Part shown: one piece after another, positions 4,173-59,599 of the stretch | How the letters are laid out: every line of letters begins with the position of its first letter | Numbering within the stretch: position 1 is the stretch's first letter | Source: Pseudoalteromonas shioyasakiensis | Lineage (GTDB): Bacteria; Pseudomonadota; Gammaproteobacteria; Enterobacterales; Alteromonadaceae | Assembly (NCBI RefSeq): GCF_019134595.1 | Contig: NZ_CP077771.1 | Span: forward strand, 806,001 to 870,000 | DNA: 64,000 nucleotides | Direction of reading: 5' to 3' | Program-made: the position numbers and the translations under genes | The notes under the pieces: model-generated | The model's database searches: none | What the model was told of the DNA's origin: nothing | What the model saw: only the letters and a program-made list of their open reading frames with translations

Positions 4173-5564
4173 TCACACCTTAAATGCGTTTAGCGCTCGC
4201 TCTCGCGCGGCTTTATGATCAACAATTGCTGGCCAATAACTGCTCGACTTACCCTGTTTCGCTAAGTAATCATGCGGAAAATGGATTTGCTTAGCAGGAA
4301 TTTTTTCCAGCTCTGGTAAATATTTACGGATAAATTCACCTTCTGGATCAAATCGCTCGCTTTGGGTGATAGGATTAAAAATTCGAAAATACGGCTGTGC
4401 ATCACACCCCGTACTTGCAGCCCATTGCCAGCCACCGTTATTAGATGCAAGGTCACCATCAATAAGATGCTGCATAAAAAAGCGTTCGCCTTTACGCCAA
4501 TCAATTAATAAGTGCTTCGTTAAAAAGCTCGCGACCACCATGCGTAAACGGTTATGCATCCAGCCAGTTTGCAGGAGCTGCCTCATTGCAGCATCAACTA
4601 ATGGATAGCCTGTTTTACCTTCGCACCATGCTTTAAAGTCGCTTTCATCATCACGCCATTTAACGGCGTTATATTTATCGTTGAAGTTGTCGTATTTATT
4701 TAGGTTTGGATAAATCGCGATAAGATGGCGGTAAAATTCACGCCAAATCAATTCGTTAACCCAACAAAATAAATTACTTTTACTGCTTCGTAGTACATCA
4801 GGGTGACGTTGCTGGATCAGTGCCAATAGTTGATGAACGCTAATAATACCAAGTGCTAAGTAAGGGCTTAAACCCGAGGTGCCTTTAATGCTTGGGATAT
4901 CTCGTTGGTCTTGATAAGTCACAAGTTTTTCTTCAATAAAGCGCGCGCAAACGTGGCTAAGCGTGTCATCATCAACAGGCCACTTTTCTGAACTGCCGTC
5001 TGTACTTAATAACTCACTTGGCTGCCACTTAATGGGCTCAAACATCTGTGGCGGCTCAGCAAAATAAAAGTGGGTGTCTTGATAAACTTTTAGCCATGCA
5101 TTTTTAAATGGCGTGAATACTTTGAACATCTCACCGCTTTGATTTTTGATGCTTCCCGGCGGCGCAATTACATCACCGTCATATGCATAAAAAGCAATTC
5201 CGTTGCTATCAGCGTGCTGTAAAAAGGTTTTATCTCGGTTTACTTCGTTAAGCTCATATTCGTTGTTAGCGTATACATTTTTTACTTGATGCTGCTCGCA
5301 AAATGACGCTAACTTTTTAACACAACCGGCATAATCGGCTGCATCAATAATATGTAATTCAATACCTTTACTTGCTAAAAGCTCCCCTAAGAAGCTAAGC
5401 CTACGCTTTAATAAATCTAGCTGAATAGCAGCCACATCATGCTTTTGCCATTGCTTCTCAGTAATAAAAAACACCGCATTTCGGCAACCATTTTCGATTG
5501 CCTGATACAAGGCGTCGTTATTAAAAAGGCGCAGATCGCGCCTAAACCAAAATAATGTGTTCAT
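4173..5564 (-). CDS. phrB: Deoxyribodipyrimidine photolyase (CPD photolyase)
   Basis: 463-aa flavoenzyme that splits cyclobutane pyrimidine dimers using blue/near-UV light. The N-terminal antenna-binding Rossmann domain begins with LFWFRRDLRLFNNDAL. The C-terminal FAD and DNA-binding domain contains WRKGERFFM, the DLASNNGGWQWAASTG signature and QPYFRIFNP. Length matches class I enzymes. The start ATG overlaps the stop of the TudS/YbgA gene (TAATG). A photolyase inside an ECF sigma-ChrR operon fits a singlet-oxygen and light response. A cryptochrome role is less likely because the photolyase signature is intact and the protein has no C-terminal extension. Confidence 0.94.
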   Translation of the reverse strand: MNTLFWFRRDLRLFNNDALYQAIENGCRNAVFFITEKQWQKHDVAAIQLDLLKRRLSFLGELLASKGIELHIIDAADYAGCVKKLASFCEQHQVKNVYANNEYELNEVNRDKTFLQHADSNGIAFYAYDGDVIAPPGSIKNQSGEMFKVFTPFKNAWLKVYQDTHFYFAEPPQMFEPIKWQPSELLSTDGSSEKWPVDDDTLSHVCARFIEEKLVTYQDQRDIPSIKGTSGLSPYLALGIISVHQLLALIQQRHPDVLRSSKSNLFCWVNELIWREFYRHLIAIYPNLNKYDNFNDKYNAVKWRDDESDFKAWCEGKTGYPLVDAAMRQLLQTGWMHNRLRMVVASFLTKHLLIDWRKGERFFMQHLIDGDLASNNGGWQWAASTGCDAQPYFRIFNPITQSERFDPEGEFIRKYLPELEKIPAKQIHFPHDYLAKQGKSSSYWPAIVDHKAARERALNAFKV

Positions 5565-50638: not shown

Positions 50639-53600
50639 TTAACGGCGAGCCCGATACTGATAGCATCTAATAAACGCTAGCAGTAACAACAATGAGATTA
50701 AGCTCAGAGGTAGCGCTCCCCCACTTGTTTTATGCTCAACAATCACTTTTTTATAGGCTTTAACAACCACATTAAACTGCCCTTGGGTTGTTCCGCCATC
50801 ACCATCAGAGATAATAAAGGTTACTGTATCAGTGCCATCAAAACCGACATTTGGAGTATAGGTAAGTGTGCCGTCATCATTGATAACAACCACCCCATTA
50901 TTAGCTGATGCAGAAATAATGGTGAAATCATTATTATCATCATCAGTAACATTGCCTACTATGTCGATGTTAATTGGGTTTTGATCATCTGTTGTAACAT
51001 CAATAATTGCACTCACTTGTGGTGCTGTGTTTTCAACAACCTCAACAGTCACAGCTGCAAATGCTGAGCCGCCATTACCATCAGATACGCCATAGTTTAT
51101 TGTGGCTGTACCTAGATGTTCAGCTTGTGGACTAAAGTGCAGTTCATTATTAACAATACTCACTTCACCAATATCAACAGTTGCCGATGTTAGAGTTAAT
51201 AAATCGCCATCTGCATCTGTATCATTAGCTAAAACATCAAGGTATGCACTGATATTACGTTTCACCGTCATAACATCATCCATAGCTACTGGTTGGCTGT
51301 TATTCGTATCTAAAGTTGCGATACCGCTTGGATCTTCAATTGCACGATTAACTTGGCCATCGGCATCATTTGGACCACCATCTTCAATCGTAAGTTGAAC
51401 ACACCAGTGACCTTCGGTAAGCCCTTGTGTGTACTGCGCATCCTGTGGTGGTGGGCAGAATCCTTCAGCACCTTGTGCTGATGCAATACTATTACGACTA
51501 TCGACTGCAAATTCAGTCCAGCCAGTAGGCATCAGTTTACGATAAACAGCATTGCTCGGAATTGGACTAAACTGTGCTATCACTATGCTCACAGACTGAC
51601 CCGCAACTGGAATTTCATTTACATTGAAATCAAATACGCCGCTGATGTAGTCAAACCCATCGTCAGCATTCGCACCTAAGCCGTTATGTCCATACTTCAC
51701 TGCATCGTCTTCAGTAATAGCGGTGTTGCTACCAGAGGCTTTAAAAGCAACGTTACCTAAGCTAAAATGAAGTCCTGGTTCTGTCTCCATCAAGAAAAAT
51801 TCGCTTTCGACCAGTTTCTCTTGAACAACATTAGTTGCTAGTGAGCTGGCATCTAGATAATCTGGAATACCGTCGTTATCGCTGTCGGCGTAACCCTCTT
51901 CATCATCATTGATCCCATCAAAGTCTGAATCAATAGCTGATAACTCAGGTAATGAATCAAGCACTGTCAGTGAAAGCTTCACTGTGCCAGTCTTGTCACC
52001 ATCATCAACAGTGACCATAAATTCATAAACACCTTCAGCGAGTATGCTTGGGTCAAAACTAAGTTGGTCATCAATTACATCTGCATCAATGATTGCTTCA
52101 TCAGACACTTGCCAGTCAAATACATGGATATCGGCGAGGTTTGCATCTGTCACTAATGCACTGATAGTTACTTCACCGGCCTGTTTATCAATAAGACGCG
52201 TACCCACACCTTGCTGAGCTGCAAATAATTCTACGCTTGGCGCAACATTACCCTCTGCAATTGTTAGTGTATGTGAACCTAACGGACCCACAACTGCATT
52301 TTTAGGCTCTTGAAAATGCACAGTTAATGTTTCTGTGTTTTCTGGTAAGTCATCTTCAACAAGGTTAACTATCAATTGAGCTTCACGTTGACCTTGCTTA
52401 AAGGTAAATTCACCTTCAGATAAGTCATGGTCGTCTCCCATAATTGCATCCCCCGAGACTGTAAATGGCACTACTACAGGGTAAGTTACTGCATCACCAT
52501 TGAGAATCGCTTTAATGATGACGCTTGTTCCTTCAGTTGCAGTTTGATCTTTACTGAAATTAACTTGTGGGATTACATGGATCAATTGCGTTGCTGTAAC
52601 TTGGTCACTCCCTTCACCGGCACTCCAGACAACGGTATGCGTGCCCGATGCGAAGAAGCCTTTAGAGCTTGCCGTAACTCGCACTGGATTACCTAGTGAA
52701 TCCAATGCAACAGCCGTCCCCATATTCACTTTAGTGAACAGTCCTTCTGATGCAATCGTTTTATCTTCAGGTGCTGTGATAGTTATATCAGACACCGTTG
52801 ATACCACTTTAACGATAAGTGTTACATCTATCACTTCACCACTTGCATCTTTAATTTGATAAGTAATAGTTACATCTGCGTTTAAGCCAACAGGCGGTAA
52901 ATATTCAAGCTTATTATCAACAATTCGAATACTACCAACACTTGCAAGCGCTTTAACTAATGTCAGTGCATCACCATCAACATCAATGTCATTCGCTAAC
53001 ACATCAAGTACGACATACTCATTTAAGTCAGCATTAACCGTAAAGTTATCTGGTGTAGCAACAGGTGCATCATTAACTGGGTTCACTACAATAGTGACTG
53101 TTGCTAGCTCAGAGGTTAAAACACCATCAGAGACGCTATAACTAAAGCTATCAGAGCCACTAAAATCTGCATTTGGTTGATACATAAAACGATTAGCATC
53201 CATCGTTAACGTACCATTGCTAACAGGTGTGACTAAGTTGAATGTCAGCTCGTCACCATTCTCATCAAAGTACCCGAGTGTAAAGGTGATGCTCTCGTCT
53301 TCATTGGTACTGAATTGCTCACCACTAGCCACAGGCGCAACGTTAGCAATAATAACTGGGCTAGTAGCACCTGATGTAAAGGTCTCAGTATTACCGTTGC
53401 CATCAACATAGGTTACGACAACAGTAATCGTCGCACCGATATCAGCATCGGTTAGCATATACTCAGACAGTGTTGCGCCTGTAATTAACACCCCGTTGCG
53501 CATCCATTGGTAGGTAAATTCACCCAATCCATCTGCATCTTCAATGGTTGACTCAACACGCAAAGTTTCACCTTGTTTTGCCTCACCACTGATACTGATA

Positions 53601-56600
53601 CCACCCGTTGCTTCATCGTTAACATCGGCCACTGTGATAACAAAGGTTTGTGTATCAGTTAATCCTTCAGCATCAGTTACTAATAAGGTAACAACATGAG
53701 TGCCCACATCATCATTACTTGGTGTACCACTTAGCTCACCTGTGTCAGGGTTAAAGTCAAGCCAGCTTGGCAGTTCTGTAGCACTCAATTTATAGCTATC
53801 AGCACTGTCTACATCATTGACAACAAGTACATAGCTATACGCTTCATCTTGTGTCGCTGAAGTGACTGGCGCTGACTCAATCAGTGGCGCATCATTTACA
53901 GCGAGTACAGTAATAGTCACTGATGCCGTATTTGACTCTGCACCTTCATTATCAACTACTGAGTAAGTAAAGCTATCAAAGCCGACGTAATTGCTAACTG
54001 GGGTATAAGTAACTGTACCATCTATATTATTGATAATGTTACCAAATGCAGGTTCAGTAACAATCTTAACTGAGTCCTCGTCAATACTACCATCGACATC
54101 AGAATCATTGCCTGTCACATCGATGATAACGCTCTCATCTTCATCAATTTGTGTTGCATCATTATTTGCCAGCGGTGCATCATTCACAGCTGTTACTGTG
54201 ATGAATACAGTTGCATTATTTGACCAAATACCCAAATCATCTTTAACACGATAACTAAAGCTGTCTTCACCATTGCTATTAGCATTAGGCGTATAGCTGA
54301 TCATGCCGTCAACAATTTGTGTACTACCATGTTCTGGCTCAGTAAAAACCTCAAGGCTTGATTTATTAAGCGAACCATCTACATCTAAGTCGTTACCCAG
54401 TACATTAATGCTATGAGCTGTATCTTCGAGCAATTGAGCAACATCATTATTAGCCACTGGTGCATCATTCACACTATTCACGGTTAATTTCACTTCGGCG
54501 ATATTTGAGATTAATGATTGGTCATCTTTCACGCTATAAGTAAAGCTATCGCTGCCAAAGAAATCAGCGTTTGGTTTATAACTGATGGTTCCTGATGCAC
54601 TATTAATGCTGACTTTACCGTGTGCTGGTGCTTGGGTAATAGTCACATTGTCAATTGTTAAATCGCTATCTACATCAAGGTCATTGTCTAAAATCGACAG
54701 CTCAATCGAGGCATCTTCATCAAGCTCAGCTACATCGTTTAATGCAATTGGCGCATCATTAACTTCACCTACTGTGACCATTACGCTGGCCTGATTAGAC
54801 ATGGCTCCAGATTCATCTGCCACACGATATGTAAATGTGTCACTGCCATTAAAGTCCGTGTTTGGGGTATAAAGAATACGCTTGTTTTGCACACTCGCCT
54901 TACCATTTTCTGGCGCTGTGACGACTTCTAAACTAGATAAATCGAGTGAATCACCTTCATCTAAATCTGAATCGTTTAGTGCGACATCAATTTCAATTGC
55001 CATGTCTTCTTCAGTTATGGCCGTATCAATTTTAGCAAATGGTGCATCATTAACCGGGTTGATGGTAATAGAAACAGTCGCAATAGCTGAGCGCCCATTT
55101 TCTAAATCATCGACGGTATAAGTGAAAGAATCAGAGCCATTGACATTTTCATTCGGCGTATAGGTAATAACCCCATTCGCAGTATTTAAACTCGTTTTAC
55201 CAAGCGTTGGTGCTGTTACTACGCGAACACTGGCAGGGTTTAAGTCATTATCAACATCTGAATCGTTCTCTAAAATATTAATAGCAACACTATTATCTTC
55301 ATCAACGCTTGCTTTATCATCATGTACATCTGGCACATCATTAACATTCACAACATTCAGGGTAAACTCCTGCTTTGCTTCCTCTTTACTTGCATCAGTG
55401 ACAATAAGCGTAATGTTGTACGTACCTACATCATCATTCGTGGGTGTGCCGCTCAGGGTAAGTGTAGTATCATCAAAGGTTAACCAGCTTGGCATACCAA
55501 GAGCTGTATAAGAAAGACTATCATCAGCATCCACATCAGTTGCAGAAACGGTATAGCTGTACTGCTCATCTTCGGTTGCGGTTGTAATCGGCGTAGATGA
55601 AAATACAGGGGCATCGTTTACATTCTCAACGGTAATAGAAAACATTTGAGAATCAGACTCTTTTGCACTATCAGTAACCGTTAAACTTACCGTATGCGTG
55701 CCAACATCATCATTGCTTGGCGTACCAGACACTAAACCTGTCGCAGCATTTAAGCTTAACCAACTAGGAAGCGTCTTAGCTGAATAAGTCAGCGTATCGC
55801 CTTTGTCAACATCAGTTGCACTCAATGTATAGTTATAAATGCTGTCCTCTGTCGCTGTTGTGATAGGTGTTGACGAAATAACAGGTGCATCATTTACATT
55901 CATTACCGTCAACGTAAACTTCTGAGTACTTGTTTCTTTCTTTGAATCAACAGCAAGCAAGGTAATCGCATGTTTCCCAACATTTTCGTTCGTGGGAGTA
56001 CCACTTAAGATTTGGCTGACACTATTAAAGGTTAACCAAGAAGGCAGATTTAAACCTGAGTATGTGATCGAATCACCAGGATCAACATCTACTGCAGTAA
56101 ACTTATAACTATAGAGCTCGCCCTCTGTTGCTGTTATGACAGGGCTAGATGTGATAGTTGGTTTATCATTTACATTAGCAACATTAATCACAAAATCCTG
56201 CTTGTCAGATGCATTTAAAGAATCTGTTACAACCACTGCAACCGCATGCGTGCCTAAATCATCATTTGTCGGCGTGCCTGATAAAACGCCAGATTTAGCA
56301 TCCATTGTTAACCAACTAGGTAGACCAATTGCACTAAATGTAAGCGTATCACCCATATCGGCATCACTTGCCTTAACTGAATATAAATATTCAGTGTCTT
56401 CAGTTGCCCAAACCGGAGCTGAAGATGTTATCACAGGTGCCTCGTTCTTGCGGATTACATTTAAAGAATATTCTTGTTTAAGTTTTTCAACTCCATTTTC
56501 AGTTACATAAATCGTGATAGGGTAAGTGCCAATATCCAATTGCTCTGGAAAACCTGTTATCGTTCTCGTTGTCGCATTATATCCGATCCAGTGAGGATAG

Positions 56601-58801
56601 GAGTCGCCGAAAGAAACCGTTATTATTATCTCATCATTTTCAGCATCGGTTACTATAATTTTATATGTATATGACTGACCAGCTTGCACAACTGTAACAG
56701 GTTCAGATTCAATGACGGGTAGATCATTAACCGGCGTAATTGTGATACTAAACATTTGATTTGTTATTGGTTCGGCAGAGTCTTCTCCCCCATCAGCTAA
56801 GTCGAAATTAAAACTATCTGACGTAGTTTCACTACCATTATGCTCATAATAAAGAATAGAATCATCTAGTGTTTGCTGGGTAAACGTTGAGTTTAATGCA
56901 AGTCCCTCACCTGAGTCTAAACTGCCATTATCATTGGCATCTACAAACAAGCTGCCATTAGTAGGTACTGATTTAAGCGTAAATGTAAGCCCTGTACCAG
57001 AGTCATCAGGATCAGTTGCAGATAAATTCAAAGTAGAAATTACTTTTGCTGCACCTTCATCAATTAAAAGGCCTTTATTAACACTAATAGACGGGGCTTT
57101 GTTAACTTTAACTACGTTATAAGTTAAAGTTACAGGCGAGGCGCTCTCAGTGCCATCAATCAGTTCGCTCGTGAATGTGAATTCACCTGTGTAGTTACTA
57201 TCAAGAGTAAAGGTTAAGTTATCAATACTCGCATTTACATCACTGACACTGCCCGAGATTGTTAATACACCTGAACTTGCATCAAAGTTATAAACTGCGC
57301 TTCCACTAGCACTACCTGAAAAGTCACCTGCATTAGTATCCGAAAGTGAAATGGTTAATAAAATACTATCGCTATCATTATCAGAAACTTTTACACCTTG
57401 AAGCGGGTTTCCTATTGATTCTCCTTGATTAATAGAATTAGATGAATCAGAGAATGATGTTGAAGTAAATTTTTTTACAGTGCCTAACGCAATTGAGCTA
57501 CCGTCGGCATAAAAAACATAAGGTGTGTTTTGGCTATCAAGGGCTATACGGTTAAAGTCAGTGAACTTTTCGGTAAATCCCCTAGCTCCAACAAACTGCC
57601 AAGTGCTATTTTGATAAGTTACAACACTCCCTCTTGCTGGATCAACTCCATAGTCTGTGGCAAATATAAAGGGAATGTCGTTTTCCCCCAATACAAAATC
57701 AGGATAAAATACTTCATTACCTGTGATATTCTCGTGAAGTGATGTCCAGCTTGTGCCATCAAATTTATAAAGTGTAAGCCCCTTTGTAAATCGGCTGTTC
57801 TCAGTTGGAGCACTCAATAAAACATTGTCTTTGCTGTCAATTGCTATTGTCGTGTAGTTTGCATCGACATTTGAAATACCTGCTTCGCCTACATATCCCC
57901 AAGATAAGCCATTAAACGACATAACTGAAGCACCAGAGGAAGCTAGAGAAAAGTCTCTAAATGAAACGTAAGGAGTATTTGTGCTATCAAAAGCAAGATC
58001 AGTATAACCAACTTTTGAAGGTGAAAACCCTTCAACACCAATCCCTACCCATTTAGCACCATTATATTTTTTTAAAACAGCTTTATTGCTGAAATTGCTA
58101 TCGTTATAAACAATATGTAAGACACCATTATTATCAAATGCTAAATTAGAGAAAAAACCTAAGCCGCTCGATATAAGTGAACCTACATCATTCCAAGTAC
58201 TCCCATCAAAACTCAACACTCTTAGCCTGCCAGAGTTACCTTCATCAGCAAAAGAAACGTACGGAGTATTATTACTATCAAAAATTAGATCTGTGTAATA
58301 AATGTTTCCATTTGCAATATTTTTATTTCCGACATACTCCCAATCTGTACCATTGAACTTCATGACACTGCCATTTTTCGTTGATGTATCAGCGAAAATT
58401 ACCCAAGGCACATCGTTAGCATCAAGCCTAATTCTTGAATGGATACCACTTTTAGATGACCCCGCGAATTTAGCACTGCCAACTAATTCCCAGGCACTAA
58501 CGCTCAAGCTAGGCGCTTCATTCGATTTGGTTACATTAAGTGTTGAATTTTTTTGCACATTGTAATCTGACAACGAACGACCATTTTCTAATGTTTGACC
58601 ATTAAAGGTGATGATCTGCCGAGCTTGCTCAATACTCGTCTGCTGCTCAACAAGGCCTTTTACCGTTTCAATGCTGTCGCTTGGCTCAACATCGAGTGTG
58701 AAGGTCTGAGTAGGTGCGATAATTGTAATCGGCATAGCCAATATAGACATAGGCGCAATAAGCGCTATGAGGTATAGGTATTTAATAATTGTTGATAGCA
58801 T
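50639..58801 (-). CDS. Giant exported surface protein: ubiquitin-like domain, propeller, cadherin/Ig-like repeats, GlyGly-CTERM
   Basis: 2720 aa. Signal peptide residues 1-22 (ending SILA). A ubiquitin-like domain at 23-92 contains TLDVEPSDSIETVK and GRSLSDYNVQKNSTL. Seven propeller-type repeats of about 50 residues (about 104-450) each start W-x-x-V-G. Putative-Ig/cadherin repeats span about 690-1155 (LPSWLTF, GTPTNDDVGTH). VCBS/cadherin-like repeats span about 1157-1635 (NDSDVD, GSDSFTYTV). Further Ig-like modules and a Calx-beta-like domain (about 2080-2185) follow, then calcium-type Asp-rich repeats (SDNDGIPDYLD, about 2289-2315) and a choice-of-anchor-U-like region with two Cys. Two more cadherin-like repeats precede the GlyGly-CTERM tail (TSGGALPLSLISLLLLL, ending YRARR). 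It is probably a type II-secreted, rhombosortase-processed adhesin. Confidence 0.88.
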   Translation of the reverse strand: MLSTIIKYLYLIALIAPMSILAMPITIIAPTQTFTLDVEPSDSIETVKGLVEQQTSIEQARQIITFNGQTLENGRSLSDYNVQKNSTLNVTKSNEAPSLSVSAWELVGSAKFAGSSKSGIHSRIRLDANDVPWVIFADTSTKNGSVMKFNGTDWEYVGNKNIANGNIYYTDLIFDSNNTPYVSFADEGNSGRLRVLSFDGSTWNDVGSLISSGLGFFSNLAFDNNGVLHIVYNDSNFSNKAVLKKYNGAKWVGIGVEGFSPSKVGYTDLAFDSTNTPYVSFRDFSLASSGASVMSFNGLSWGYVGEAGISNVDANYTTIAIDSKDNVLLSAPTENSRFTKGLTLYKFDGTSWTSLHENITGNEVFYPDFVLGENDIPFIFATDYGVDPARGSVVTYQNSTWQFVGARGFTEKFTDFNRIALDSQNTPYVFYADGSSIALGTVKKFTSTSFSDSSNSINQGESIGNPLQGVKVSDNDSDSILLTISLSDTNAGDFSGSASGSAVYNFDASSGVLTISGSVSDVNASIDNLTFTLDSNYTGEFTFTSELIDGTESASPVTLTYNVVKVNKAPSISVNKGLLIDEGAAKVISTLNLSATDPDDSGTGLTFTLKSVPTNGSLFVDANDNGSLDSGEGLALNSTFTQQTLDDSILYYEHNGSETTSDSFNFDLADGGEDSAEPITNQMFSITITPVNDLPVIESEPVTVVQAGQSYTYKIIVTDAENDEIIITVSFGDSYPHWIGYNATTRTITGFPEQLDIGTYPITIYVTENGVEKLKQEYSLNVIRKNEAPVITSSAPVWATEDTEYLYSVKASDADMGDTLTFSAIGLPSWLTMDAKSGVLSGTPTNDDLGTHAVAVVVTDSLNASDKQDFVINVANVNDKPTITSSPVITATEGELYSYKFTAVDVDPGDSITYSGLNLPSWLTFNSVSQILSGTPTNENVGKHAITLLAVDSKKETSTQKFTLTVMNVNDAPVISSTPITTATEDSIYNYTLSATDVDKGDTLTYSAKTLPSWLSLNAATGLVSGTPSNDDVGTHTVSLTVTDSAKESDSQMFSITVENVNDAPVFSSTPITTATEDEQYSYTVSATDVDADDSLSYTALGMPSWLTFDDTTLTLSGTPTNDDVGTYNITLIVTDASKEEAKQEFTLNVVNVNDVPDVHDDKASVDEDNSVAINILENDSDVDNDLNPASVRVVTAPTLGKTSLNTANGVITYTPNENVNGSDSFTYTVDDLENGRSAIATVSITINPVNDAPFAKIDTAITEEDMAIEIDVALNDSDLDEGDSLDLSSLEVVTAPENGKASVQNKRILYTPNTDFNGSDTFTYRVADESGAMSNQASVMVTVGEVNDAPIALNDVAELDEDASIELSILDNDLDVDSDLTIDNVTITQAPAHGKVSINSASGTISYKPNADFFGSDSFTYSVKDDQSLISNIAEVKLTVNSVNDAPVANNDVAQLLEDTAHSINVLGNDLDVDGSLNKSSLEVFTEPEHGSTQIVDGMISYTPNANSNGEDSFSYRVKDDLGIWSNNATVFITVTAVNDAPLANNDATQIDEDESVIIDVTGNDSDVDGSIDEDSVKIVTEPAFGNIINNIDGTVTYTPVSNYVGFDSFTYSVVDNEGAESNTASVTITVLAVNDAPLIESAPVTSATQDEAYSYVLVVNDVDSADSYKLSATELPSWLDFNPDTGELSGTPSNDDVGTHVVTLLVTDAEGLTDTQTFVITVADVNDEATGGISISGEAKQGETLRVESTIEDADGLGEFTYQWMRNGVLITGATLSEYMLTDADIGATITVVVTYVDGNGNTETFTSGATSPVIIANVAPVASGEQFSTNEDESITFTLGYFDENGDELTFNLVTPVSNGTLTMDANRFMYQPNADFSGSDSFSYSVSDGVLTSELATVTIVVNPVNDAPVATPDNFTVNADLNEYVVLDVLANDIDVDGDALTLVKALASVGSIRIVDNKLEYLPPVGLNADVTITYQIKDASGEVIDVTLIVKVVSTVSDITITAPEDKTIASEGLFTKVNMGTAVALDSLGNPVRVTASSKGFFASGTHTVVWSAGEGSDQVTATQLIHVIPQVNFSKDQTATEGTSVIIKAILNGDAVTYPVVVPFTVSGDAIMGDDHDLSEGEFTFKQGQREAQLIVNLVEDDLPENTETLTVHFQEPKNAVVGPLGSHTLTIAEGNVAPSVELFAAQQGVGTRLIDKQAGEVTISALVTDANLADIHVFDWQVSDEAIIDADVIDDQLSFDPSILAEGVYEFMVTVDDGDKTGTVKLSLTVLDSLPELSAIDSDFDGINDDEEGYADSDNDGIPDYLDASSLATNVVQEKLVESEFFLMETEPGLHFSLGNVAFKASGSNTAITEDDAVKYGHNGLGANADDGFDYISGVFDFNVNEIPVAGQSVSIVIAQFSPIPSNAVYRKLMPTGWTEFAVDSRNSIASAQGAEGFCPPPQDAQYTQGLTEGHWCVQLTIEDGGPNDADGQVNRAIEDPSGIATLDTNNSQPVAMDDVMTVKRNISAYLDVLANDTDADGDLLTLTSATVDIGEVSIVNNELHFSPQAEHLGTATINYGVSDGNGGSAFAAVTVEVVENTAPQVSAIIDVTTDDQNPINIDIVGNVTDDDNNDFTIISASANNGVVVINDDGTLTYTPNVGFDGTDTVTFIISDGDGGTTQGQFNVVVKAYKKVIVEHKTSGGALPLSLISLLLLLAFIRCYQYRARR
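58526..58735 (-). other. Ubiquitin-like domain coding segment (residues 23-92 of the giant protein)
   Basis: Aligned by hand with eukaryotic ubiquitin from Met1, about 33 of 70 positions are identical with one single-residue gap. Shared stretches include VEPSD, GR-LSDYN and QK-STL. The positions equal to ubiquitin Lys27 and Lys63 are Lys, while those equal to Lys6, 11, 29, 33 and 48 are not. There is no LRLRGG tail; the sequence runs on into NVTKSNEAP, so it cannot be conjugated through its C-terminus like ubiquitin. The predicted signal cleavage would put the domain's Met at the mature N-terminus. Confidence 0.85.
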
Positions 58802-58924: not shown

Positions 58925-59599
58925 TTAGTCGAAGTAATATCTTGCGCCAATTGAGAGCATCGAAGCATCAGTTGAATCCAGCGCTGCATGGTCGTAACTT
59001 AGAAAAATCTGGGTATTTTTAAAGAGGTCAAAACTTGCTTCAACGCCATAGGTGACACTGTTACCACTGCGTTTTGCTTTAACTAACTGTGAGGAATCTG
59101 CTTGATATTGGTAATCTTGGTGCCAATCTAAATACCCCACTTTAGCTGTCAGCGATATTTCTTTGGTAATTGGCCAAGACGCTAACAGTGATATTTGCGG
59201 CCCAGTTGCTGATTCCGGGTAAACTTGTTTCATGGTGCTGTTAAAGTTATCTAAGTCGGTGACTTCGCCAGTAAAACTAAAATGTCTCTCACCAAAATCT
59301 ACATAACCAACTTGCAGTGAATAGATTGCATTGAATTTATAACCGATTGCAGCTTGGTAACCCGTATCCGAGTCTTTAACCGAAATAGAATCAATCAAGG
59401 TCCCTTGTTCATTGAGTGATGATTTTAGGCTTTTTGTGCTAATGTCTGTGGAGGCTGAGCCTATTTGCCCAGAAACAAACCAACCTGTTTGTTCAGCTTT
59501 ACTCTGTTGACTACAAAATAGAGACCCAGCAAATAGAATGACTGTCGCAGACTTAAGAACAAAACCATTTTGACTAGTGGAAAAGTATGAAGCTTTCAA
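58925..59599 (-). CDS. OmpA-like outer-membrane beta-barrel protein
   Basis: 224 aa with a signal peptide (likely cleaved after SKA near residue 35) and alternating beta strands: GWFVSGQIGSAS, TGYQAAIGYKFN, YSLQVGYVDFGE, ISLTAKVGYLDWH, VTYGVEASFDLF. It ends with the aromatic C-terminal strand SIGARYYFD needed for Bam insertion. There is no peptidoglycan-binding domain, so it is an eight-stranded barrel only. It lies 123 bases upstream of the giant protein gene on the same strand and could be co-transcribed. Confidence 0.88.
   Translation of the reverse strand: MKASYFSTSQNGFVLKSATVILFAGSLFCSQQSKAEQTGWFVSGQIGSASTDISTKSLKSSLNEQGTLIDSISVKDSDTGYQAAIGYKFNAIYSLQVGYVDFGERHFSFTGEVTDLDNFNSTMKQVYPESATGPQISLLASWPITKEISLTAKVGYLDWHQDYQYQADSSQLVKAKRSGNSVTYGVEASFDLFKNTQIFLSYDHAALDSTDASMLSIGARYYFD

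Follow-up and report, generated by a model that had tools for sequence, protein, structure and literature searches.

A ubiquitin domain at the head of a giant, probably secreted protein of Pseudoalteromonas shioyasakiensis, and a wider class of prokaryotic ubiquitins behind signal peptides

What is ubiquitin, usually presented as a eukaryotic protein, doing at the head of a giant bacterial one? The question is raised by a stretch of 64,000 nucleotides of the Pseudoalteromonas shioyasakiensis genome (assembly GCF_019134595.1, contig NZ_CP077771.1, positions 806,001 to 870,000), referred to here as the window and numbered from its first letter. A gene on its minus strand (P0001, 50639..58801) encodes a protein of 2720 amino acids, read as an open reading frame (ORF) with an ATG start and, by eye, an AGGAA-like sequence upstream. 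Residues 1-22 (58736..58801, minus strand) form a predicted Sec signal peptide, recognized from the sequence and its hydrophobicity, and residues 23-92 (58526..58735, minus strand) are, by Pfam, nearest solved proteins, alignment and a predicted model, a ubiquitin domain starting at the predicted signal-peptidase site. We consider it probable that this head derives from a horizontally spread group of secreted ubiquitins and that remodelling has turned it, in this surface protein, into a folded module for capping or contact.

The original prediction placed a ubiquitin-like domain, of ubiquitin rather than sulfur-carrier type, at the head of a long and probably secreted protein, on the strength of a hand count of 33 identities over 70 positions. 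Alignment of residues 23-92 to eukaryotic ubiquitin reproduced that count exactly (33 identities in 70 columns), with a score of 151 against a maximum of 42 in 2000 shuffles of the domain. In the Pfam scan PF00240 scored 52.7 and 59.5 bits, about twice its cut-off of 25.4, and no solved protein is nearer in sequence than ubiquitin itself, so that both the ubiquitin head and its type were borne out. No family with sulfur-carrier traits (ThiS, MoaD) appeared at E <= 0.1 in that scan, and the domain has no Gly-Gly end. The anticipated beta-grasp model within a few angstroms of ubiquitin was also obtained, with a template-modelling (TM) score of 0.89 and a root-mean-square deviation (rmsd) of 1.1 A to 1ubq. 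This first model is not independent, because near-canonical ubiquitins sat in its alignment; a second one, from an alignment of 11 Pseudoalteromonas family members only, without canonical ubiquitins, gave the same fold with the same elements.

The Pseudoalteromonas lineage appears to retain the ubiquitin fold without the surfaces by which canonical ubiquitin is recognised. In place of a C-terminal Gly-Gly (GG) the domain continues into TKSNEAP and then into a beta-propeller, and since the GG end is missing, covalent tagging through it is excluded for the window copy. The Ile44 patch (L8, I44, H68, V70) is replaced by P, T, N and T, position 8 being the less sure because of a one-residue gap in loop 7-10 of the alignment, and only two of the seven ubiquitin lysines are retained (K27 and K63), with Q at position 48. 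The prediction had offered mimicry and a stable cap as speculative roles. With neither an Ile44 patch nor a GG end and with most lysines replaced, mimicry of the canonical surface is unlikely for the window copy; the cap fits better, and loss of the Ile44 surface makes a cap or a new contact the likelier role. Near-canonical relatives leave mimicry open for the class as a whole.

Within the genus the head is rare: residues 1-110 find matches in 3 of 108 genomes. The last 639 residues have at least one full or partial match at E <= 1e-3 in 107 of the 108, in part because common repeats lie there; full-length matches are many, mostly at about 40-45% identity, and only the same two sister genomes reach 67-71%. 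Among eight giant-protein relatives whose N-terminal DNA was fetched by position, six have readable starts (L116, L117, L118, L120, L124 and L125), assigned to their frames by frame length, while L119 is cut by a contig end and L123 holds unrelated genes. These six starts are of four kinds, two of them found twice (L116 resembles L117, and L120 resembles L125), and none contains ubiquitin, so the tip of these proteins looks modular.

Variation inside the ubiquitin-bearing family was followed in 15 database members, a count that excludes P0002, which is of eukaryotic type, and P0003, the window's own copy. Complete signal peptides are 95-100% identical; four of the database copies have a late start. 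Identity of the ubiquitin head is 85-100% in the ten members of the main group, and in a second group of five (P0014-P0018) it is 69% over the first part of the domain and 47-53% over the rest. The propeller (approximately residues 100-458, 57428..58504, minus strand), seven-bladed according to a predicted model and fold comparison, as is typical of PLL/PHL-type lectins, ranges from 24 to 84% across the 15, compared with 58-80% for residues 470-690 and 63-95% for residues 1000-2720. In P0005 the ubiquitin is 94% and the part from residue 1000 onward 92-93% identical to the window protein, with a propeller at only 29%. The simplest reading of these sequences would be that the propeller is swapped by recombination beneath a constant head. 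Compared with its nearest sister, L003, the window gene shows differences of 0.316 per synonymous and 0.043 per non-synonymous site in the ubiquitin codons, and the head is therefore under purifying selection; the figures for the propeller region are 0.284 and 0.080.

In wider surveys, too, the PF00240 domain is rare. At E <= 0.001 it was found in 4 of 99 relatives including the window's own genome (the other three being one sister, one frame with an internal stop and one sub-threshold match), in 5 of 369 members of the same taxonomic class including the own genome, where G292 is the sole other genome above the cut-off, in 2 of 398 members of the phylum including the own genome, the other just passing, and in none of 14 control genomes. 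G292, by sequence the same gene as L015 from a Halothiobacillus metagenome-assembled genome (MAG), encodes a signal peptide, a near-perfect ubiquitin, fn3 and an IPTL-CTERM tail, the NCBIfam version of which falls just under its cut-off.

Rare as it is, the arrangement is not unique, and many phyla have proteins in which a signal peptide leads directly into a ubiquitin head. Genomes from 84,980 species, scanned with an alignment of three domains, returned 311 pattern matches, 275 of which encode a relative (tblastn). The figures given here for the class refer to the best 80 of these 275 loci, ranked by similarity to a near-canonical 72-residue ubiquitin; the two search patterns (approximately residues 13-21 and 56-63) favour those residues, and residues beyond 72 are least affected. 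By a simple rule, which asks for a start codon at a distance of 15-60 codons upstream, a run of hydrophobic residues and a permissively defined -3/-1 motif, a signal peptide precedes the ubiquitin in 66 of the 80. The remaining 14 are L017, L020, L031, L034, L042, L046, L047, L050, L053, L059, L064, L071, L079 and L092, and in two of them a signal peptide may lie out of view, since L017 has no start codon within the range searched and L047 is cut by the end of its contig. The junction is exact in nearly all, the signal peptidase I -3/-1 motif standing directly at ubiquitin Met1 in 65 of the 66, compared with 9 to 33 of the 66 at sites one to seven residues earlier; BfUbb of Bacteroides fragilis is described with an identical junction (PMC5705921). 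In the 2720-residue protein the motif ILA stands, by inspection, directly before Met23, with predicted cleavage between the two. The signal peptides ahead of ubiquitin are also slightly more hydrophobic than a crude control set of signal-peptide-like ORFs taken from elsewhere in these loci (median 2.64 versus 2.38, n = 66 versus 75, p 1e-4; 2.48 for the window's own), a difference that would be in keeping with co-translational export of a fast-folding domain.

By record title, with phyla assigned from the names given there and MAG labels accepted as they stand, the 66 loci belong to Pseudomonadota, Actinomycetota, Bacillota, Bacteroidota, Cyanobacteriota, Verrucomicrobiota, Chlorobiota, Synergistota, Planctomycetota, Bdellovibrionota, KSB1, Lindowbacteria and methanogenic archaea. 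Eighteen of them are neither MAGs nor bins, and these cover only Pseudomonadota, Actinomycetota, Bacillota and Cyanobacteriota (L027, a single cell judging by its name). A further example is the complete plasmid pRUMAL01 of Ruminococcus albus 7, where a 'ubiquitin family protein' has its ubiquitin directly behind a signal-like stretch.

The partner domains behind the head are diverse. In a Pfam scan of all 66 loci plus L017 and L050, the 66 showed autotransporter barrels (20), SLH domains (4), IPTL-CTERM (4) and type IX secretion system (T9SS) tails (2), together with fn3, SdrD_B, MBG, beta-helix, Ig and other surface repeats. In two Dyella loci (L030 and L035) the ORF ends with the ubiquitin, which thus stands alone behind its signal peptide. 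All-against-all BLASTP (E < 1e-5) of the partner regions, with the 68 of 80 loci whose partner region has at least 40 amino acids, gave 31 groups, 27 of them with loci of the 66-locus set (hand count). A propeller of the window type was found in only one of the 80 ORFs, L044 of Saccharibacillus sp. O23, which has a signal peptide, a near-canonical ubiquitin, the propeller (27% identity to that of the window over 338 residues, E 2e-33) and SLH domains. Conversely, 4 of 77 long proteins with the window's propeller list PF00240 (P0003, P0004, P0009 and P0015), all of the window's own family, to which P0014, with a ubiquitin just below the PF00240 cut-off, and P0016 also belong. Since the pair of ubiquitin and propeller was seen only in the window family and L044, the order common to both may be coincidence and not a sign of shared descent; at 70 residues and about 90% identity the ubiquitins carry too little signal for a tree. 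A protein-database search with the Saccharibacillus ubiquitin and propeller was swamped by eukaryotic polyubiquitins among the best 120 of 3747 matches.

The codons of these heads resemble those of their hosts. G+C content at third positions (GC3) of the ubiquitin codons is correlated with GC3 in the remainder of the ORF (r 0.935, n = 58) and with the G+C content of the flanks (r 0.90, n = 65), and across the 2145 pairs of the 66-locus set the median synonymous difference is 0.89, near saturation, with 0.093 at non-synonymous sites. As locus selection explains neither the codon match to each host nor the saturated synonymous sites, these sequences would point to long residence under constraint. 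The body of the domain is kept in the 66-locus set, with all lysines at 94% or more (K48 94%), L8 at 95%, I44 at 91%, H68 at 100% and V70 at 82%; R42, an E1 contact, is looser at 80%. The conjugation tail decays, from 67% at R72 and 34% at R74 to 20% at G75 and 6% at G76, the last being kept in four of the 66, among which L030 ends in LRLRGG. Covalent Gly-Gly tagging is, on the reading of this tail, excluded for nearly all of the 66, which leaves a non-covalent role for a very stable domain with its native N-terminus free. If the kept Ile44 surface of near-canonical members is upheld in an unbiased test, it would suggest recognition by eukaryotic receptors or, as with BfUbb, by bacterial targets.

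Some further loci were noted in the course of these searches. In another genome of the order to which the window belongs, a frame resembling ubiquitin is interrupted by a TAG (L002:1501-1740); it is perhaps a decayed copy, and adjoins what looks like a reverse-transcriptase fragment. Four actinobacterial MAG loci (L046, L059, L079 and L092, with ubiquitin at 4692, 6001, 3734 and 3385, respectively) have a near-canonical N-terminal ubiquitin and no visible signal peptide; the region after the ubiquitin is related among them, and three that were scanned gave no Pfam family above cut-off there. In eight loci (L018, L019, L021, L032, L040, L045, L062 and L067) a long N-terminal stretch with an F-S-T/S-like motif, for example FTSTA, precedes the hydrophobic core; they carry different phylum labels, and several are autotransporters. 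L095 (1495-2274, Pseudomonadota) encodes a protein of 259 amino acids whose N-terminus distantly resembles ubiquitin (26.6 bits when genomes were searched and 24.0 in the protein scan, cut-off 25.4). It adjoins a nuclease-like gene and might belong to a toxin or conflict system. Phage records gave no match. On viral contigs there are 16 loci, and ten ubiquitin ORFs inspected there comprise two that look led by a signal peptide (L127 and L129) and eight that do not, some of them with tandem ubiquitins. L131 and L132, also from viral contigs, carry the ubiquitin N-terminally on proteins of about 245 amino acids in which no second domain was recognised.

The rest of the giant protein, all on the minus strand, has the look of a surface protein; databases list close relatives as 'Ig-like domain-containing protein' or 'tandem-95 repeat protein'. 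The database copy of the window protein itself (P0003, 2703 amino acids) starts 17 codons later, whereby most of the signal peptide would be lost. Behind the propeller lie a Cadherin_3 domain (residues 570-688, 56738..57094, Pfam 79.9 bits), a stalk of He_PIG, Big_9 and cadherin-like repeats recognized by Pfam and NCBIfam tandem-95 (approximately residues 700-2000 and 52800..56700), a Calx-beta domain (residues 2092-2182, 52256..52528, Pfam 31.1 bits, cut-off 27) and a choice-of-anchor U domain (residues 2381-2495, 51317..51661, NCBIfam NF041766, 43.9 bits, cut-off 32). The protein ends in a GlyGly-CTERM-like tail (residues 2693-2712, 50666..50725) with SGG, a hydrophobic helix and a basic end; the hallmarks (Gly/Ser motif, hydrophobic stretch, basic end) were read in the window tail and in two relatives, and the same genome encodes a rhombosortase (164.7 bits, cut-off 84). 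Upstream of the gene a promoter scan found 3 candidates compared with 3.6 expected. A gene for an OmpA-like beta-barrel (58925..59599, Pfam PF01389, 50 bits) lies 123 bases upstream on the same strand, and is the neighbour in both relatives (L003 and L007) as well; its product is a possible partner in assembly or anchoring of the giant protein.

From these elements we propose that Sec would export the 2720-residue protein and that signal peptidase I would expose the native Met1 of ubiquitin. Rhombosortase would then handle the tail, and the stalk would present propeller and ubiquitin at its far end, where the propeller, the most variable part between strains, would bind a ligand, probably a glycan, and the head would act as a small, very stable cap and contact module rather than as a covalent tag. 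The head itself would come from a class of secreted ubiquitins that has spread horizontally among prokaryotes; most members examined are near-canonical in surface. Our proposal for that class is more tentative and, in our estimate, falls slightly short of an even chance: ubiquitin would be a freely exchanged head module of secreted and surface proteins in perhaps a dozen prokaryotic phyla, joined without scar to the signal peptide, anchored by several routes, selected for a non-covalent function of the folded surface and independent of conjugation, with its surface re-tooled in Pseudoalteromonas.

Several observations weigh against these readings. Export, surface display and binding of the giant protein are predictions from its sequence, which does not distinguish a cap from a specific binding role. 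TIGR03501 (GlyGly-CTERM), the only family listed on the tail, stays below its cut-off of 15.5 with 11.9 bits (E 0.31), and the propeller is not the sole variable part, as residues 700-1000 also vary (45-81%) and are mostly absent in P0016. The BLASTP partner groups are over-split, autotransporters falling into at least three of them. Where two loci have related partners, conservation is higher in the ubiquitin than in the partner in 70 of 71 pairs (medians 91% versus 34%), and in the 55 pairs whose partners are less than 40% identical its median is 91% and its minimum 79%; however, the pairs are not independent and the choice of loci for similarity inflates conservation. When the partners are unrelated, ubiquitin identity is hardly lower (median 89%, n = 2074, versus 91%, n = 71), an outcome to be expected from such a choice of loci even if no constraint were shared, so that the level of conservation is largely set by the search.

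The alternatives differ in what the head would act upon. In favour of a mimic or decoy that engages ubiquitin-recognising proteins of protists, algae or animals are the retention of L8, I44, H68 and K48 at 95, 91, 100 and 94% in the 66-locus set while the tail decays, the body figures being inflated by selection of the loci, and the reported bioactivity of extracellular ubiquitin on animal cells (PMC10892293). The window copy, with P, T, N and T at positions 8, 44, 68 and 70 and Q at 48, does not fit this, and several carriers, for example Prochlorococcus and Conexibacter by record title, are to our knowledge free-living; we consider mimicry unlikely. Antagonism of rival bacteria appears more doubtful still. 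Its precedent is BfUbb of Bacteroides fragilis, which is cut exactly at the first ubiquitin residue and inhibits other B. fragilis strains (PMC5705921), and the stand-alone Dyella ubiquitins behind signal peptides would suit the same role; but BfUbb is a free protein of 76 residues, whereas the window domain is tethered to about 2700.

Two more alternatives carry little weight. Beta-grasp domains are common in bacteria, and one of them could have come to resemble ubiquitin by convergence, a very improbable course that is contradicted by the Pfam ubiquitin score, the nearest solved proteins and the alignment to ubiquitin. Eukaryotic contamination of assemblies, which we find hardly credible as an account of the class, is brought to mind by L064, a tandem polyubiquitin on a 4-kb MAG contig, and by the fact that most of the 80 records are MAGs. 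However, 20 of the 80 are neither titled MAG nor named as bins (L094, a 21st untitled record, was counted as a bin by name), their contigs measure about 11 kb to 1.3 Mb, and 18 of these 20 pass the signal-peptide rule; the Ruminococcus albus 7 copy belongs to a finished replicon, codon composition matches the host, and the window gene, which lies on a contig of 899 kb, has orthologues in two sister genomes. We therefore reject contamination as an explanation of the whole class, though it may account for individual loci (L064 and perhaps L031, L034, L042 and L053).

With a horizontally spread, remodelled secreted-ubiquitin head as the preferred reading, the comparison with what has been described can be drawn. 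In most presentations of ubiquitin BfUbb is the exception among bacteria, and the 2017 BfUbb paper states that most bacteria make no ubiquitin (PMC5705921). A 2024 review of ubiquitin evolution mentions polyubiquitin-like operons in bacteria, and its main text does not contain 'secreted', 'signal peptide' or 'Bacteroides' (PMC11354881). In the open-licence literature, by titles and abstract starts, we found the BfUbb papers and no account of ubiquitin-headed surface proteins. If true, a patchy class of secreted ubiquitins with a scar-free signal-peptide junction and a decayed conjugation tail would imply a use for the surface or fold of ubiquitin in the extracellular space; it would provide dozens of testable proteins, some in cultured strains, and ubiquitin matches in bacterial genomes would deserve a look before being dismissed as contamination.

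BfUbb (gene ubb) is a secreted ubiquitin whose signal peptide is cut just before residue 1 and which has no GG end (PMC3352274, PMC5705921). The window domain is likewise a ubiquitin without a GG end and would be secreted, its ILA motif being placed such that a cut before residue 1 would be expected; it differs in having 33 of 70 identities to ubiquitin and in heading a giant protein, BfUbb being a stand-alone protein of 76 residues. The target of BfUbb was reportedly identified in 2024 as a peptidyl-prolyl isomerase. Eukaryotic ubiquitin (PF00240) is matched in the model fold, within 1.1 A, and in the same 33 of 70 positions, whereas the window copy lacks the GG end, has a substituted Ile44 patch and two of seven lysines, and bears no sign of conjugation. 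The GlyGly-CTERM-like/tandem-95 giant proteins of Pseudoalteromonas have the C-terminal part in common with it and, in six readable starts, no ubiquitin, and the PLL/PHL lectins of Photorhabdus have the seven-bladed propeller that the model predicts here. Saccharibacillus sp. O23 L044 has its first three parts (signal peptide, ubiquitin, propeller) in the same order, but its ubiquitin is near-canonical and its remaining domains are of S-layer type. The window protein thus varies a known theme, the secreted bacterial ubiquitin, and it is the class that is potentially more novel.

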